DNA of 64,000 bases from NCBI RefSeq assembly GCF_030063205.1, contig NZ_JASISQ010000001.1, forward strand, positions 62,001 through 126,000, read 5' to 3'. Below are positions 11,062 through 17,116 of the stretch, piece by piece (within the stretch, counting starts at the first letter, position 1; each line of letters starts with the position of its first letter). Under the pieces are notes generated by a model. It did not search any database, was not told the DNA's origin, and saw only the letters and a program-made list of their open reading frames with translations. A program made the translations under genes and the position numbers. This stretch comes from Arthrobacter antibioticus (lineage in GTDB: Bacteria; Actinomycetota; Actinomycetes; Actinomycetales; Micrococcaceae).

Positions 11062-11484
11062 CTAGTAGCGTTCAGGTTCAGAACCCAGCTCAAAGCGAAT
11101 TCCACGAACACTGTTTGGGACGATCTCCACGAATGTGTATTTGAGCGTTTGTAGCCAGGGGAAGAGCGGCAACTGGCTCACTACATCGATCTCCGACTGG
11201 GATTCAAGGACGCGTGCCTTCCCTTTCACCACGATGCTCCACGCTTCATTCTCGGTGAGACCATCTATTTCGAAAGCCACTGAATCATTGATAGTCAGTT
11301 CTGCCAGTTTTGTCCCGGGGTTTGTTCGAATGAGGAGCTTGCCGTCGTGCGCAAGATAGTTGATGGGAAATATGTCAGGCTCATTGGCAACGCTGAGTGC
11401 GAGGCGACCGAAACGGGTGTGTTCAAGAAACTGCCATGCATCGTCGTTGGACATATTCACGCCGGGACGCTCTTCAATAGTCAT
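11062..11484 (-). CDS. Pyridoxamine 5'-phosphate oxidase family (flavin/F420-binding split-barrel) protein
   Basis: This is a 140-aa split-barrel protein. Diagnostic segments are the N-terminal WQFLEHTRFGRLAL, FPINYLAHDGKLLIRTNPGTKL, and the WSIVVKGKARVLES strand. Relatives bind FMN or F420 and reduce diverse substrates or act in stress responses; the substrate here is unknown. I place the start at the ATG at 11484; a GTG six codons upstream is possible, and neither has a strong ribosome-binding site. The protein lacks the catalytic features of true PdxH and should not be assigned to vitamin B6 synthesis. Confidence 0.82.
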   Translation of the reverse strand: MTIEERPGVNMSNDDAWQFLEHTRFGRLALSVANEPDIFPINYLAHDGKLLIRTNPGTKLAELTINDSVAFEIDGLTENEAWSIVVKGKARVLESQSEIDVVSQLPLFPWLQTLKYTFVEIVPNSVRGIRFELGSEPERY

Positions 11485-11560
11485 GCTGTGATTATGCCCC
11501 ACAGTTCATGGCGGCCGCTATGGCTATGGCATGGGACAAGCCGCGTGGCGGATTACTGGC

Positions 11561-12661
11561 TCAACTAGATGGAACAGACTGAGTGCCAAAATCAGGTAAA
11601 GAACCAGCACTCTCACGCAGAACAACAGCACCTGTAACACTGGGAGGCTGCTTTGCCAGCGGAGCAAGCGCCATTTGCGCGGCAAGGCGCCCTATGTTTT
11701 CAAGCGGTAGACGGTAGGTGGTAAGGCCGGGAAAATGGTCCCGCAAAGTAGGGATGTCATCAAATCCGGTTACCTGAACATCTTCGGGAATGCGTAAACC
11801 CCTAGACCTCAACGCGGTCATGGCACCCAAAGCCATGACGTCGTTGGCGGCCATAATGCACAGCGGGGAGCCATCGCCGAACTCCACCGCAGCGTTCAAT
11901 TCTTGGGCAACACTTAGCGGACCCAGAGAATCCAGATACTCTAACGTGGAGTCGTAGCCACCCTGGCTGGTAAATGCCCCATGCACCACGGCGAGCGGCT
12001 GGAGCTTTGCTTGTGCCAGACGATCCGAAAGACCTTCAACACGAATCCGTGCAGTATTGCGGTCGTGTGGGCCGGCCAAGATGACAAAGCGTCGTATTCC
12101 TTGATCAAGCAACGCACCTGCAAGCGCTGCGGCGCCATCGTGGTTTTCAACGTGCACCACCTGGGCTTCGTGGATAGCAGAAGCTCCCAAGGTCACAACA
12201 CGCCCGCCGTTCCTAACGTATCGAGACAGGGCCATTATCAGCCGTGGATCTTCGTCCAAAAGCCGGGATGCGGCTAGAATAATAGCGTCAGTGCGGTATG
12301 AAATGAACGCATTCACGGCTGCTAGTTCGGCACCGCCGGGGGAGTCGCCGTCGCGTTCTATGTCAGTTCCGGCCAATAACACTTGGTGGTTGGTATCAAG
12401 GGCCGCCTGCTGCACTCCGTGGGCAATGGCGGAAAAATAGGGGTCGGCTATGTCATGTACCACGAGCCCCACTAAGCCTGTGGTTGATCTGGCCAGCGCT
12501 TGAGCCTGCGCGTTGGCCACATATCCCAGTTCCTCGGCCGCAGCCTTGACTCGCTCAGCAATATCGGGCGCAGGAGTCCTACTTGAGCCGTTCAGTACCC
12601 GCGAGGCAGTGGCCAGTGACACGCCAGCTTGGCGCGCCACTTCAGTGAGTTTTACCGGCAC
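11561..12661 (-). CDS. LacI-family transcriptional regulator
   Basis: This 366-aa repressor starts at the GTG at 12661, which has AAAAGGA upstream and sits four codons before the helix-turn-helix; longer TTG forms have no ribosome-binding site. The N-terminal HTH reads KLTEVARQAGVSLATASRVLNG. A periplasmic-binding-protein-like sugar domain follows (GLVVHDIADPYFSAIAHGV, TGFDDIP). It is divergent from the Gfo/DUF993/isomerase cluster, and an 18-bp palindromic LacI-type operator lies between them, so this is almost certainly the local regulator, induced by a sugar or sugar derivative. Confidence 0.92.
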   Translation of the reverse strand: MPVKLTEVARQAGVSLATASRVLNGSSRTPAPDIAERVKAAAEELGYVANAQAQALARSTTGLVGLVVHDIADPYFSAIAHGVQQAALDTNHQVLLAGTDIERDGDSPGGAELAAVNAFISYRTDAIILAASRLLDEDPRLIMALSRYVRNGGRVVTLGASAIHEAQVVHVENHDGAAALAGALLDQGIRRFVILAGPHDRNTARIRVEGLSDRLAQAKLQPLAVVHGAFTSQGGYDSTLEYLDSLGPLSVAQELNAAVEFGDGSPLCIMAANDVMALGAMTALRSRGLRIPEDVQVTGFDDIPTLRDHFPGLTTYRLPLENIGRLAAQMALAPLAKQPPSVTGAVVLRESAGSLPDFGTQSVPSS

Positions 12662-12707
12662 AGAGGCGTCCTTTTCTAAGAATAATGCATGAGTCAACAG
12701 CTATCTC

Positions 12708-12736
12708 TTGACCCGGAGCTAACTTCAGCATATATT
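12708..12736 (+). promoter_or_regulatory. Promoter of the gfo-DUF993-isomerase operon
   Basis: TTGACC (-35, 12708-12713) and TATATT (-10, 12731-12736) are separated by exactly 17 bp. The -10 runs into the LacI operator. The expected start near 12743 gives a leader of about 88 nt before the GTG at 12831. Confidence 0.7.
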
Positions 12737-12752
12737 GGAAAGCGCTTTCCAA
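12735..12752. promoter_or_regulatory. LacI-family operator, 18-bp perfect palindrome
   Basis: TTGGAAAGCGCTTTCCAA is a perfect palindrome with the central CG typical of LacI/CcpA operators (TGGAAAGCGCTTTCCA core). It covers the end of the -10 box and the predicted start site, so binding would block initiation. It is 74 bp from the lacI-type start codon, allowing autoregulation. Confidence 0.85.
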
Positions 12753-12830
12753 AGTCCAGGCCACGCCGGGTTTACTGGTACGTGCCAACACCAGAGAACA
12801 ACACTTGAGCACAACATTCAGGAGAAATCA

Positions 12831-14057
12831 GTGACTCTTACCACCGCCAATGACCAGCCCACTGCAACGACGGAACAAACCGGCGCACATGCCGAGGCCA
12901 CCCGGCGGGTGATACGTATCGCCATGAACGGCATAACCGGACGTATGGGCTACCGTCAGCACCTATTGCGCTCCATCCTGCCCCTGCGGGATTCTGGTCT
13001 CCTACTCGAAGACGGAACCAAGGTAGCCATTGAGCCCATCCTCGTGGGCCGTAACGAAGCGAAGGTGCGCGAGCTAGCTGAACTGCACAATGTTCAGCAC
13101 TGGACAACTGATCTGGATGCTGTCATTGCCGACCCCACGGTCGATGTTGTCTTCGACGCTTCCATGACAAGTCTGCGCGCAGCCACCCTGAAGAAGGCTA
13201 TGGCCAATGGCAAACATATTTACACGGAGAAGCCCACCGCGGAAACCCTTGAAGAAGCTATTGAACTGGCACAGATCGGCAAGGATGCCGGCATCACCGC
13301 AGGGGTTGTCCATGACAAGTTGTACCTGCCGGGCTTGGTAAAACTGCGCCGCCTAGTTGAGGAAGGGTTCTTTGGCCGTATCCTTTCCATTCGCGGAGAA
13401 TTCGGTTACTGGGTGTTCGAAGGGGACCACCAGAGTGCGCAGCGTCCCTCATGGAACTACCGCAAGGAAGATGGTGGTGGCATGACAACAGATATGTTCT
13501 GCCACTGGAACTACGTGCTTGAAGGCATTATCGGTAAAGTTAAGTCCGTCAATGCCAAGACAGCCACTCACATCCCGGCCCGTTGGGACGAGACCGGCAA
13601 CGAGTACAAGGCAACAGCCGACGACGCAGCGTACGGCATCTTTGAGCTGGAAACCCCAGAGGGAGACGCCGTCATTGGCCAGATCAACTCCTCTTGGGCT
13701 GTGCGCGTGTACCGCGATGAACTAGTTGAGTTCCAGATTGACGGCACCCTTGGTTCAGCAGTTGCCGGTCTGAATAAGTGTGTTGCCCAGCAGCGAGCCC
13801 ACACCCCAAAACCTGTGTGGAACCCGGATCTGCCCGTCACGGAATCGTTCCGCGACCAGTGGCAGGAAGTTCCCGCGAACGCAGAGTTGGATAACGGCTT
13901 CAAGCTGCAGTGGGAAGAGTTCCTGCGTGATGTTGTTGCCGGTCGTGAACACCGCTTCGGGCTCCTTTCGGCCGCACGCGGTGTGCAGTTGGCCGAGCTT
14001 GGTCTACAGTCATCCGCTGAACGCCGCACCTTCGACGTCCCGGAAATTGAGCTTTAG
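12831..14057 (+). CDS. Gfo/Idh/MocA-family NAD(P)-dependent oxidoreductase
   Basis: This 408-aa protein starts at a GTG preceded by AGGAG; the in-frame upstream extension has no such signal and overlaps the operator. The N-terminal Rossmann motif is unusual for the family (MNGITGRMG instead of GxGxxG), and is followed by the EKPTAETLEEA segment that carries the family's EKP lysine. The C-terminal half is the large alpha/beta dimerisation domain. Family members oxidise sugars or cyclitols. It is the first gene of a LacI-controlled operon, so oxidation of a sugar is likely the first step. Confidence 0.88.
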   Translation: MTLTTANDQPTATTEQTGAHAEATRRVIRIAMNGITGRMGYRQHLLRSILPLRDSGLLLEDGTKVAIEPILVGRNEAKVRELAELHNVQHWTTDLDAVIADPTVDVVFDASMTSLRAATLKKAMANGKHIYTEKPTAETLEEAIELAQIGKDAGITAGVVHDKLYLPGLVKLRRLVEEGFFGRILSIRGEFGYWVFEGDHQSAQRPSWNYRKEDGGGMTTDMFCHWNYVLEGIIGKVKSVNAKTATHIPARWDETGNEYKATADDAAYGIFELETPEGDAVIGQINSSWAVRVYRDELVEFQIDGTLGSAVAGLNKCVAQQRAHTPKPVWNPDLPVTESFRDQWQEVPANAELDNGFKLQWEEFLRDVVAGREHRFGLLSAARGVQLAELGLQSSAERRTFDVPEIEL

Positions 14058-14059
14058 TC

Positions 14060-15319
14060 ATGGCTGCTAAATCCAGTGAGAACATCACCATCACGTTGCC
14101 ACTGGCCAACGGCCAGCTCGAAGCATTAACTCTGGAAGCGCCGGGCCCGTGGCGCAAGCCCACGCAGTTACTGCGCTCCCGCAAAGTTTATGCGGCTGCG
14201 CATGTCACACCAAAGGTGCTTGGAAACAACGTTCCCGGAGCCCGCGCAGATATTGATTGGGACGCCACCATGGCGTTCCGGCGTGAGCTATGGAGCTGGG
14301 GCGTGGGGATTGCCGACGCCATGGACACGGCCCAGCGTGGCATGGGCCTGGACTGGGCTGCAACGCAGGAACTGATCAATCGCAGTGCTGCTGAGGCCGC
14401 TTTCATTGCCACGCCGGAGCGCACAGTGCGCGATCTTCTTGCCTGTGGGGCCGGGACAGATCAGCTGGATCCGGCCGCCGTTGAACCCGGTGAAGAAGGG
14501 TTAGCCGCCGTGCTTGCTGCTTACCGGGAGCAGATCGCAGTGGTTGAAGCGTCAGGGGCCAAGGTCATCATTATGGCCTCACGCGCCCTGGCCAAGGTAG
14601 CCGCAAGCCCGCAAGATTACCTAGACCTTTACGGCACCTTGCTGAGCGAGGTGAAGGAACCTGTTGTGCTGCACTGGCTCGGGACTATGTTTGATCCGGC
14701 TTTGGCCGGCTACTGGGGGAGCAGCGATGTTGACTCCGCGACTGCCACGTTCCAGACCCTCATCGATGCTCACAGCACAAAGGTTGATGGTGTGAAGGTT
14801 TCATTGCTCGACGCCGGGCACGAAGTAGCGTTGCGGGCGAGCCTTCCAGAGGGTGTGCGTCTGTACACCGGTGATGATTTCAACTACCCGGAACTCATCG
14901 ACGGAGATGGCACTCGCCACTCGGACGCACTGCTGGGTATTTTTGCAGCTATTGCCCCTGCCGCCTCAACCGCTCTACAGGAATATGATGCAGGGCGTCC
15001 CAAAGAAGCACGCGCCATCCTTGATTCCACAAGAAATTTGGGCTTGCACATCTTTGAAGCACCCACCTATTACTACAAGACGGGCATCGCGTTTCTAGCC
15101 TGGCTCAACGGGCACCAGGCCGGCTTCCAGATGGTGGGAGGTCTACATGCCGGACGCAACCTGAACCACTTGGTGAAGTTGTTCCGACTGGCCAACACGG
15201 CAGCCCTCCTTCTCAAACCTGAACTAGCCGCCGCCAGAATGGCATGTTACTTAAACGCTGCGGGTGTTGCTTCGGAGCTCTCTCGCTCCCCGATGATCTC
15301 AGAAGGGGTTAGCGAATGA
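14060..15319 (+). CDS. DUF993 family protein (dihydrodipicolinate synthase-like)
   Basis: This 419-aa protein belongs to the DUF993 group, often labelled dihydrodipicolinate synthase family. Recognisable stretches are KVYAAAHVTPKVLG near the N-terminus, the HWLGTMFDPALAGYWGS segment, and KTGIAFLAWLNGHQ near the C-terminus. A TIM-barrel aldolase or lyase function is plausible but unproven, and I could not assign a Schiff-base lysine. It begins 2 bp after the dehydrogenase stop and overlaps the next gene by 4 bp (ATGA), so the three are translationally coupled. Confidence 0.8.
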   Translation: MAAKSSENITITLPLANGQLEALTLEAPGPWRKPTQLLRSRKVYAAAHVTPKVLGNNVPGARADIDWDATMAFRRELWSWGVGIADAMDTAQRGMGLDWAATQELINRSAAEAAFIATPERTVRDLLACGAGTDQLDPAAVEPGEEGLAAVLAAYREQIAVVEASGAKVIIMASRALAKVAASPQDYLDLYGTLLSEVKEPVVLHWLGTMFDPALAGYWGSSDVDSATATFQTLIDAHSTKVDGVKVSLLDAGHEVALRASLPEGVRLYTGDDFNYPELIDGDGTRHSDALLGIFAAIAPAASTALQEYDAGRPKEARAILDSTRNLGLHIFEAPTYYYKTGIAFLAWLNGHQAGFQMVGGLHAGRNLNHLVKLFRLANTAALLLKPELAAARMACYLNAAGVASELSRSPMISEGVSE

Positions 15320-16236
15320 GGACTTTCGAAAAGCTGTCAATCAACACAGGAACTATGAAGAAGGCATCCCTCGCCGAAGCTCTTGAGGTCACTGCAGCCG
15401 CTGGACTGTCCCACATTGGGCTATGGCGGGACAAAGTAGCCGAGGTTGGTTTAGAACACGCACTAAAAATGGTGCGTGAGTCGGGTTTGCAGGTCTCAAG
15501 CCTGTGCCGTGGCGGATTCTTGACAGCTGCAGATGAGCAGGGCCAAGCTGCTGCGTTGGCAGATAATAAGGCGGCCATATTGGAGGCGGAAGCCCTTGGG
15601 GCGCCAGAAATCATCATGGTGGTGGGCGGGTTACCTGACTTCAGCGTTGCTCCCGGTGCCGTTGATGGCGGCGGTGCCACTGGTTCAATAGCTGGTGGAA
15701 AAGACGTGGTGTCAGCGCGCGAGCGTGTCGGGGAACGTCTCGGTGAGCTTGTCCCTTTTGCCATCGAACACGGAGTCAGGTTGGCCCTTGAACCACTGCA
15801 CCCAATGTTCGCAGCGGACCGCGCCGTGCTTTCGACGTTGGGCCAGGCACTTGATTTGGCCGCGCCGTACCCGGCCGAGGCCGTGGGCGTGGTGATTGAC
15901 ACTTTTCACGTGTGGTGGGACCCATCCCTTCAAGAACAGATCGCGCGGGCCGGGCAAGAAGGCCGGATCGCGTCCTATCAGGTGTGCGATTTCAACCTAC
16001 CCATCGCTTCTGACTCACTGTTGTCCCGCGGTTTCATGGGCGACGGCGTGATCGACTTCCCCACGATTGGACGCTGGGTTGCTGAGGCCGGCTACAGCGG
16101 GGTTATTGAAGTTGAAATCTTCAACGAGGAGATATGGGCGCAACCGCATGCTGAAGTGGTGGAGTGTGTCAAAGACCGATACAGGGAACTGGTGGCACCC
16201 TATGCCAATGACGATGAGGATGTTTCTATACTTTAG
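15316..16236 (+). CDS. Sugar phosphate isomerase/epimerase (xylose isomerase-like TIM barrel)
   Basis: This 306-aa AP-endonuclease-2/xylose-isomerase-like TIM barrel has visible metal-ligand motifs: E159 in LEPLHP, D195 and H198 in DTFHVWWDP, and the late EVEIFNEE strand near residue 265. Relatives such as IolE and IolI isomerise or dehydrate keto-sugars and keto-cyclitols. It is the third gene of the LacI-controlled cluster (ATGA overlap with the DUF993 gene). Its last 11 bp overlap the convergent FKBP gene. No transporter is in the operon. Confidence 0.87.
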   Translation: MRTFEKLSINTGTMKKASLAEALEVTAAAGLSHIGLWRDKVAEVGLEHALKMVRESGLQVSSLCRGGFLTAADEQGQAAALADNKAAILEAEALGAPEIIMVVGGLPDFSVAPGAVDGGGATGSIAGGKDVVSARERVGERLGELVPFAIEHGVRLALEPLHPMFAADRAVLSTLGQALDLAAPYPAEAVGVVIDTFHVWWDPSLQEQIARAGQEGRIASYQVCDFNLPIASDSLLSRGFMGDGVIDFPTIGRWVAEAGYSGVIEVEIFNEEIWAQPHAEVVECVKDRYRELVAPYANDDEDVSIL

Positions 16237-17116
16237 AGACAATTTTGATGACGTAGACCAGGGGCCCCGCAGGGCGGTCAACGTCAGCGGCCTGGCCACG
16301 GTCGTAGGCCGAATCAAATTGTTGGGCCCCGGCCCATGTCCAGCCGGTATATAAAGCAGTCATCGTGTCATTGGGGCCGATGATTTCCCCTGTGCCCTCG
16401 CTCAAGACCTGCACGGCAAGGTCACGCGGGGCATTATTGGGTGGAATCGTGATACTGGGCGCACCGTTTGCAGCAAAAGTGGTTACTGGCAGTTGGCCAT
16501 CATTCACCAGGGCAGCAACCTCTTCAGTGGTCAGGAGCCGGGGCACGTCCGGCAGGTCCTTGACTGACTCGATCTCATAAACTGTGACGGCAGCCGGTCG
16601 GCCTCTGCCGGGACTTGCTTCAGCAATGTATGCGCCAACCTTTGCACTGGTAAAAACGTCGAAGATCTTCGGGAACCGGAGCCTGAAAGTATCGTTGAGG
16701 ACATACCCTCCACCGGCTACCTCGGAGAATGTCTGAATGAGTGTCTTGCCGGTGAGAGCGTCTATGACTATGTGACGGAACGAGACCTCTTGCCCGGGGG
16801 CGACCTGTGCACCGTCACCGTGGGTAAGCAGTGCCATAGTTTGTTCCTGGATCTCTAGTGGAGTGTCAAAAGTGACCTCGGGTGCTTGACCTTCGCGACC
16901 TGCAACAACTCGAACGGTGGAAAGAACTCCTGCGTCCGACGGCGGGCTGCTCGCCGTCTCTGTGGGGCCGGAGCTGGTGGATTCGTTGGGCGCTTCCGAG
17001 GGCGAGCTTTGTGGTGCGATTGAGGCAGTACTCGCAGCGTTGGGCTCGTTGGACACTTGTGCGCACCCACTCAAAGGCAGTAGCAGGCAAACGGTCAATG
17101 CTAGAAGACGGCGCAT
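16226..17116 (-). CDS. FKBP-type lipoprotein with an incomplete peptidyl-prolyl isomerase domain
   Basis: This 296-aa exported lipoprotein has a signal peptide with lipobox L-S-G-C (C18), then a Ser/Thr/Pro-rich linker. Residues ~60-185 look like a degenerate first FKBP domain. The C-terminal domain starts as a normal FKBP (DTMTALYTGWTWAGAQQFDSAYDRGQAA) but jumps directly to the final strand (GPLVYVIKIVSKV). The usual middle part, including the I-x-GW segment and the IPP flap, is missing. Isomerase activity is therefore doubtful, though a chaperone or binding role remains possible. The 3' end overlaps the convergent isomerase gene by 11 bp. Confidence 0.82.
   Translation of the reverse strand: MRRLLALTVCLLLPLSGCAQVSNEPNAASTASIAPQSSPSEAPNESTSSGPTETASSPPSDAGVLSTVRVVAGREGQAPEVTFDTPLEIQEQTMALLTHGDGAQVAPGQEVSFRHIVIDALTGKTLIQTFSEVAGGGYVLNDTFRLRFPKIFDVFTSAKVGAYIAEASPGRGRPAAVTVYEIESVKDLPDVPRLLTTEEVAALVNDGQLPVTTFAANGAPSITIPPNNAPRDLAVQVLSEGTGEIIGPNDTMTALYTGWTWAGAQQFDSAYDRGQAADVDRPAGPLVYVIKIVSKV

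Follow-up and report, generated by a model that had tools for sequence, protein, structure and literature searches.

The operon described here lies in a 64,000-nucleotide window of Arthrobacter antibioticus (contig NZ_JASISQ010000001.1, positions 62,001 to 126,000; "the window" denotes this whole stretch). It encodes a Gfo/Idh/MocA dehydrogenase, a DUF993 protein and a xylose-isomerase-like enzyme, and stands beside a LacI-family regulator gene. The operon appears to be catabolic, and its central product, the putative lyase DUF993, represents a so far uncharacterised branch of the superfamily of dihydrodipicolinate synthase (DHDPS) and N-acetylneuraminate lyase (NAL). Comparison with relatives supports a conserved and widespread three-enzyme module that adjoins a LacI gene and whose operator recurs. 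With our confidence about evenly divided, we propose that the module oxidises a sugar-like substrate, shifts the carbonyl, cleaves a carbon-carbon bond through a Schiff base and passes a three-carbon product on to glycerate.

Conservation was assessed in 123 loci selected for carrying DUF993 (120 distinct, with three pairs of identical sequence), comprising the 80 closest loci, 18 plasmid stretches, 15 stretches and 10 short loci. The stretches reach up to 12 kb either side of DUF993, and 13 of the 123 are shorter than 8 kb. Because the closest loci are the best 80 of at least 592 confirmed relatives, the counts lean to Actinomycetota. The dehydrogenase, at 40% identity or more, was present in 109 loci (106/120 distinct) and the isomerase in 115 (112/120 distinct), and the comparison of operon conservation proposed in an earlier note on this DNA came out in favor of the module. 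Of the genomes of the genus, 22 of 23 carried DUF993; of those drawn from the whole phylum, 29 of 396 did. A LacI-family open reading frame (ORF) scoring above 60 bits lies within the stretch around DUF993 in 73 of the 80 closest loci and is absent from seven. A mosaic operon arising by gene swapping was considered and rejected, since two gene trees, compared by eye, are largely congruent.

The DUF993 protein matches PF06187 along the entire profile (572.1 bits, positions 1-382 of 382, over the curated cut-off) and has no match to the DHDPS family PF00701, PF06187 being the only family listed at E 0.001. Its only solved relative by sequence is SMc04132 of Sinorhizobium meliloti (4dnh, released in 2012), with which it shares 50% identity. 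An AlphaFold2 model computed from 39 sequences (mean pLDDT 93.5) was grouped with the DHDPS family, behind 4dnh, by both Foldseek and VIA-align; in VIA-align, 4dnh scored Z 56 and DHDPS chains Z 29-30, with a root-mean-square deviation of 2.3-2.5 over 282-289 aligned residues. The predicted model thus shows the fold of the DHDPS/NAL (Schiff-base aldolase) superfamily, and in fold DUF993 is DHDPS-like, in line with the label mentioned in the earlier note. In an hhalign comparison with 19 DHDPS-family proteins, with probability 90 and over residues 156-334 only, K246 pairs with the lysine of DHDPS and H205 with its tyrosine. Both are invariant in 123/123 loci, as are W206, E255 and K340. K246 is the candidate Schiff-base lysine, the residue for which the earlier note had suggested inspecting a structure prediction.

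DHDPS proper uses a catalytic tyrosine and a carboxylate-binding GxxGE motif. DUF993 has the TIM-barrel fold and the aligned lysine in common with the superfamily, and differs from it in the histidine in place of tyrosine, in its separate Pfam family and in the GxxGE region, which reads TAQR in 120/123 loci by a matching of sequence and secondary structure. Given the DHDPS-type fold and the aligned, invariant lysine, DUF993 would be expected to act through a Schiff base on a ketone, yet it is not DHDPS. We infer that it is a lyase rather than a dehydratase.

Neighboring genes in relatives bear on the fate of the product. A glycerate kinase is encoded in the DUF993 stretch of 21/123 loci (21/120 distinct), at distances of 0 to 11 kb; 14 belong to PF02595 and seven to the DUF4147/MOFRL type, and the two types share no significant similarity. 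Six loci have the PF02595 kinase on the strand of DUF993 and at most 0.9 kb from it. Of the 102 distinct loci that are not on plasmids, which total 1.85 Mb, 13 contain a PF02595 gene, where about 0.6 would be expected from 37 matches in approximately 115.6 Mb of 22 DUF993-bearing genomes; the 37 include fragments and six of the linked matches, and the expectation applies to the PF02595 type only, not to the MOFRL type. These loci are related and hence not independent, and the placements differ between genera. Since glycerate kinases of two unrelated families are found near DUF993, glycerate is indicated as an end product. Deoxyribonate catabolism (PMC6365646) likewise proceeds by oxidation, cleavage, glycerate and a glycerate kinase; it resembles the proposed route in this logic and differs in its enzymes.

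The isomerase exceeds the Pfam cut-off for PF01261 (113.5 bits). Metal-site residues E159 and D195 are kept in 115/115 homologues and E267 in 114, the remaining row not being covered there. The fourth position is Gln (Q222) in 99/115 and His in 16/115, the latter comprising L034 (Thermosporothrix), L043 (a Gemmatimonadetes metagenome-assembled genome), twelve proteobacterial plasmid loci, and L106 and L111, two genomes of the same phylum as the window. Metal ligands of the IolI/tagatose-epimerase branch are E/D/H/E, a pattern that the Gln here departs from. Outside the enzyme's own unassigned group, IolI is its nearest relative by sequence profile and by fold (Z 30.6, 23% identity), as the earlier note's assignment to an IolE/IolI-type barrel had anticipated; IolI shows His at the Q222 position. 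Escherichia coli Hyi and YgbM, annotated as hydroxypyruvate and 2-oxo-tetronate isomerases, align Gln there and have the same E/D/Q/E site, although they resemble the enzyme little overall (hhalign probabilities of 69 and 93), and 5hmq, which we take to be a dehydroshikimate dehydratase, also aligns Gln. The Gln shared with Hyi and YgbM hints at an oxo-acid substrate, albeit from few examples. The solved S. meliloti structures (SMc04130; 3ju2/3qc0) are 46-47% identical to the isomerase, differ in having His at the fourth metal position and, like 4dnh, bear no assigned function in their PDB entries; proteobacterial relatives in general have His, unlike Hyi and YgbM. A single table of a PhaR study lists SMc04132, SMc04133 and SMc04135.

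The dehydrogenase passes the Pfam cut-offs for its NAD-binding and C-terminal domains. The catalytic set of Gfo/Idh/MocA enzymes consists of an EKP lysine and an Asp-x3-His pair; among 109 homologues (at least 40% identity), Lys134 is kept in all, and Asp221 and His225 in 108, with one row not covered. The nucleotide loop departs from the canonical GxGxxG/A and reads NGITGRMG, which the earlier note had called odd and a possible sign of altered cofactor geometry. This proved to be a subgroup signature: all 109/109 homologues fit [NHS]G[VI][TS]GRMG, 3oqb reads NGVTGRMG, and a geometry peculiar to this dehydrogenase was rejected. A GR pair at residues 73-74, after the second strand, is also kept in 109/109 and presumably reflects a preference for NADP.

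The layout described in the earlier note, with a divergent LacI gene and three coupled genes joined by a 2-bp gap (dehydrogenase to DUF993) and an ATGA overlap (DUF993 to isomerase), was recovered in full, and the gene families were confirmed (Table 1). Both the helix-turn-helix and the sugar-binding domain of the LacI protein exceed their Pfam cut-offs, the former starting at residue 17 of the longest ORF. The longest dehydrogenase ORF begins at a TTG at 12735, within the operator; the probable start, judged by eye, is the GTG at 12831, behind AGGAG. The palindrome overlaps the -10 hexamer, as previously noted, and does so by 2 bp. It is the sole match in the window at up to three mismatches (0.04 expected), and the 3.79-Mb genome holds one exact site and two further sites with three mismatches.

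Recurrence of the operator was tested with a 14-bp core in a zone from 300 bp before to 60 bp after the dehydrogenase start, using 79 of the 80 closest loci, many of them close relatives and hence not independent, and control windows from the same loci. Matches of at least 12/14 were found in 45/79 loci versus 15/1412 control windows and 1/1580 shuffles, and matches of at least 11/14 in 71/79 loci versus 37/1412 and 19/1580; eight loci fell below 11/14. The operator is therefore more than chance by this comparison, and the search for it suggested by the earlier note gave a single exact site in its own genome and a core recurring upstream of the dehydrogenase in relatives. The operon is probably repressed by the neighboring LacI protein through putative binding at this palindrome. 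The promoter-like sequence, also reported earlier, is present as the sole such match in 11400-16500, but shuffled sequence gives 2.1 matches on average, so the match alone proves little.

Table 1. Coordinates of the regulator gene, the control elements and the operon genes in the window.
Feature	Position	Strand	Basis or remark
LacI-family regulator	11561-12697	minus	PF00356 and PF13377 (Peripla_BP_3); start codon uncertain
Promoter-like TTGACC-17-TATATT	TTGACC 12708-12713, TATATT 12731-12736	plus	Hexamer match
Perfect palindromic operator TTGGAAAGCGCTTTCCAA, 18 bp	12735-12752		Search of window and genome; comparison with relatives
Gfo/Idh/MocA dehydrogenase	12831-14057	plus	Probable GTG start; PF01408, PF22725, PF02894
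DUF993 (PF06187), DHDPS-fold protein	14060-15319	plus	K246 at Schiff-base position
Xylose-isomerase-like TIM-barrel enzyme (PF01261)	15316-16236	plus	Metal ligands E159, D195, Q222, E267 by homology

In the route that we propose, the Gfo-type enzyme, judged by its family and its conserved Lys, Asp and His, would use NAD(P) to oxidise a substrate resembling a sugar or sugar acid, turning one of its hydroxyls into a ketone, and the metal-dependent TIM-barrel isomerase may then shift the carbonyl to the adjacent carbon. DUF993 would hold the ketone as a Schiff base on Lys246 and cleave a carbon-carbon bond by a retro-aldol step, the fold and lysine coming from the model and alignments. The three-carbon product (glyceraldehyde, hydroxypyruvate or glycerate) could reach 2-phosphoglycerate through a glycerate kinase, as the linkage in relatives suggests; in this genome such kinases would be supplied from elsewhere, and its two PF02595 genes are on other contigs. 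LacI would sit on the promoter palindrome until released by the substrate or an intermediate. The oxidise-rearrange-cleave reading of the earlier note retains the conserved module, the DHDPS-like fold and the IolI-like barrel, and loses the cofactor loop as a feature special to this protein.

Several observations weigh against this route. Neither type of glycerate kinase is encoded in this operon, and none was found in 102/123 loci, where some could be missed because of the 13 stretches shorter than 8 kb. To these are added the limits given above on the expected kinase rate and on the span of the DHDPS alignment. DUF993 lacks both the tyrosine and the GxxGE motif of DHDPS proper and may therefore catalyse something other than aldol cleavage. 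No isomerase adjoins DUF993 in plasmid pAO1 and Roseibium (L082, L145), and the isomerase is therefore not always needed. Finally, DUF993 stands with SDR and coenzyme A-related genes, not this dehydrogenase, in several proteobacterial clusters, so it may serve more than one pathway.

The sugar operon of plasmid pAO1 of Paenarthrobacter nicotinovorans, one of the closest known systems, suggests a pentose (D-xylose-type) oxidative pathway, in which the dehydrogenase would act on an aldose or aldonate and DUF993 would be a DHDPS-fold sugar-acid dehydratase, not an aldolase; we consider this unlikely. The plasmid encodes a dehydrogenase 89% identical over 383 aa and a DUF993 66% identical over 400 aa, adjacent and in the same order, beside an aldH annotated with the GO term D-xylose catabolic process, and a 2013 paper, judging by its title, reportedly gives evidence that pAO1 encodes an oxidative pathway for xylose. 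The pAO1 dehydrogenase is 93-96% identical to twelve chromosomal Arthrobacter-group copies, and both pAO1 genes nest among such copies in trees. The pAO1 cluster differs from the window in having a GMC oxidoreductase, aldH, an ABC transporter, GntR and a glycerate kinase alongside, and no isomerase appears in the stretch listed. That kinase, encoded after DUF993, would be superfluous to a Weimberg-type route. The best AldH match in this genome is only 42%, and no pAO1-like solute-binding protein was found in it by a search that lacked a positive control.

Two further routes were weighed. The best NCBIfam match of the dehydrogenase is levoglucosan dehydrogenase (NF052479), which would suit a 3-keto-glycoside or anhydrosugar route with oxidation at C3 followed by beta-elimination or hydration by the isomerase-family enzyme; the score is 73.9 bits against a cut-off of 650, the operon has no second reductase or second isomerase, and DUF993 and the glycerate kinase would be left unexplained. 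LgdB1 and LgdB2 of the levoglucosan system had been annotated as sugar phosphate isomerases (PMC7676230), and genes for a sugar solute-binding protein and for a Gfo-DUF6807 fusion occur in four Micrococcaceae loci (L008, L013, L014 and L017), both favoring this route, which we nevertheless hold to be distinctly improbable. A pathway for cyclitols of the inositol type, with the isomerase in the role of IolE or IolI, seems very improbable: IolI is indeed the nearest outside enzyme, but it has His where this clade has Gln, the inositol 2-dehydrogenase model IolG (TIGR04380) gives 56.9 bits against a cut-off of 355, and none of the three flanking proteins scanned is encoded by an inositol gene.

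The Pfam scan found no transporter among the operon genes, as the earlier note had stated; its corollary that uptake is encoded elsewhere does not extend to all relatives, some of which have a linked NMT1-type ABC, sugar ABC or TTT transporter. The NMT1-type ABC transporter follows lacI in Rhodococcus-group, Mycolicibacterium and Nocardia loci, and in some proteobacterial clusters the partners of DUF993 are a transporter, ABC or TTT, and a member of the enolase superfamily. A transporter conserved beside the operon was rejected, as the 80 closest loci have none in general, only lineage-specific NMT1- and sugar-type ones. This mix of transporters and partners fits acidic or sugar substrates and would single out none. 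In nine Arthrobacter-group loci (e.g., L005:6763-7569), the gene after lacI encodes a BD-FAE/alpha-beta hydrolase, which perhaps points to a substrate precursor with an ester linkage. Locus L107 carries a gene matching PF00701 at 11606-12485.

Other occurrences of DUF993 and of the palindrome were recorded. One genome of the same genus (G010) carries, besides its first DUF993, another of 47% identity together with an isomerase (L117:8749-11102); no match to this dehydrogenase was found beside it in that stretch. Three separate matches make up DUF993 in one genome of the same family (G030:C1:379764-380957), possibly a pseudogene or a sequencing error. On a Streptomyces plasmid (L088:12001-13188), DUF993 (469 bits) directly precedes a gene of 10.5 kb for a type I polyketide synthase; AMP-binding and malonyltransferase genes are close by, and this context suggests a biosynthetic use. 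A wider LacI regulon was rejected after both three-mismatch sites of this genome were inspected and neither was taken as a target. One lies between sulfatase-like and isomerase-like ORFs (L094:505-3016) and is perhaps the site of another LacI protein; the other is inside a Mur-ligase-like ORF (L095). These ORFs were named by eye. In the window, a convergent ORF with a lipoprotein-like start (16226-17116, minus strand) overlaps the isomerase end by 11 bp. It has no Pfam family at E 0.001 and no relative in the other loci compared, and its end seems to resemble a shortened FKBP domain.

The literature collection searched, to which these negatives apply and which leaves works outside it uncovered, contains no paper with the term DUF993 and no functional assignment for DUF993, the SMc0413x tags or the gene combinations; the identifiers 4dnh, 3oqb, 3ju2, 3qc0 and 7vpf gave one match, an unrelated mathematics paper. 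We tentatively suggest, at well below even confidence, that DUF993 may be a new class of Schiff-base carbon-carbon lyase, with a remodelled carboxylate pocket (TAQR) and His for Tyr, acting alongside the dehydrogenase and a Gln-type isomerase within an unrecognised non-phosphorylative sugar or sugar-acid pathway. Such a pathway would split a keto-sugar acid into hydroxypyruvate and an aldehyde and enter glycolysis via glycerate, in Actinomycetota and, with His-type isomerases, in Pseudomonadota, a Chloroflexota and a Gemmatimonadota genome. DUF993 has had a structure (4dnh) since 2012 and is found in 22/23 genomes of the genus, yet its function appears unassigned. If it is a Schiff-base lyase with a glycerate-bound product, the family would gain an assigned pathway, and the label "dihydrodipicolinate synthase family" would be corrected.

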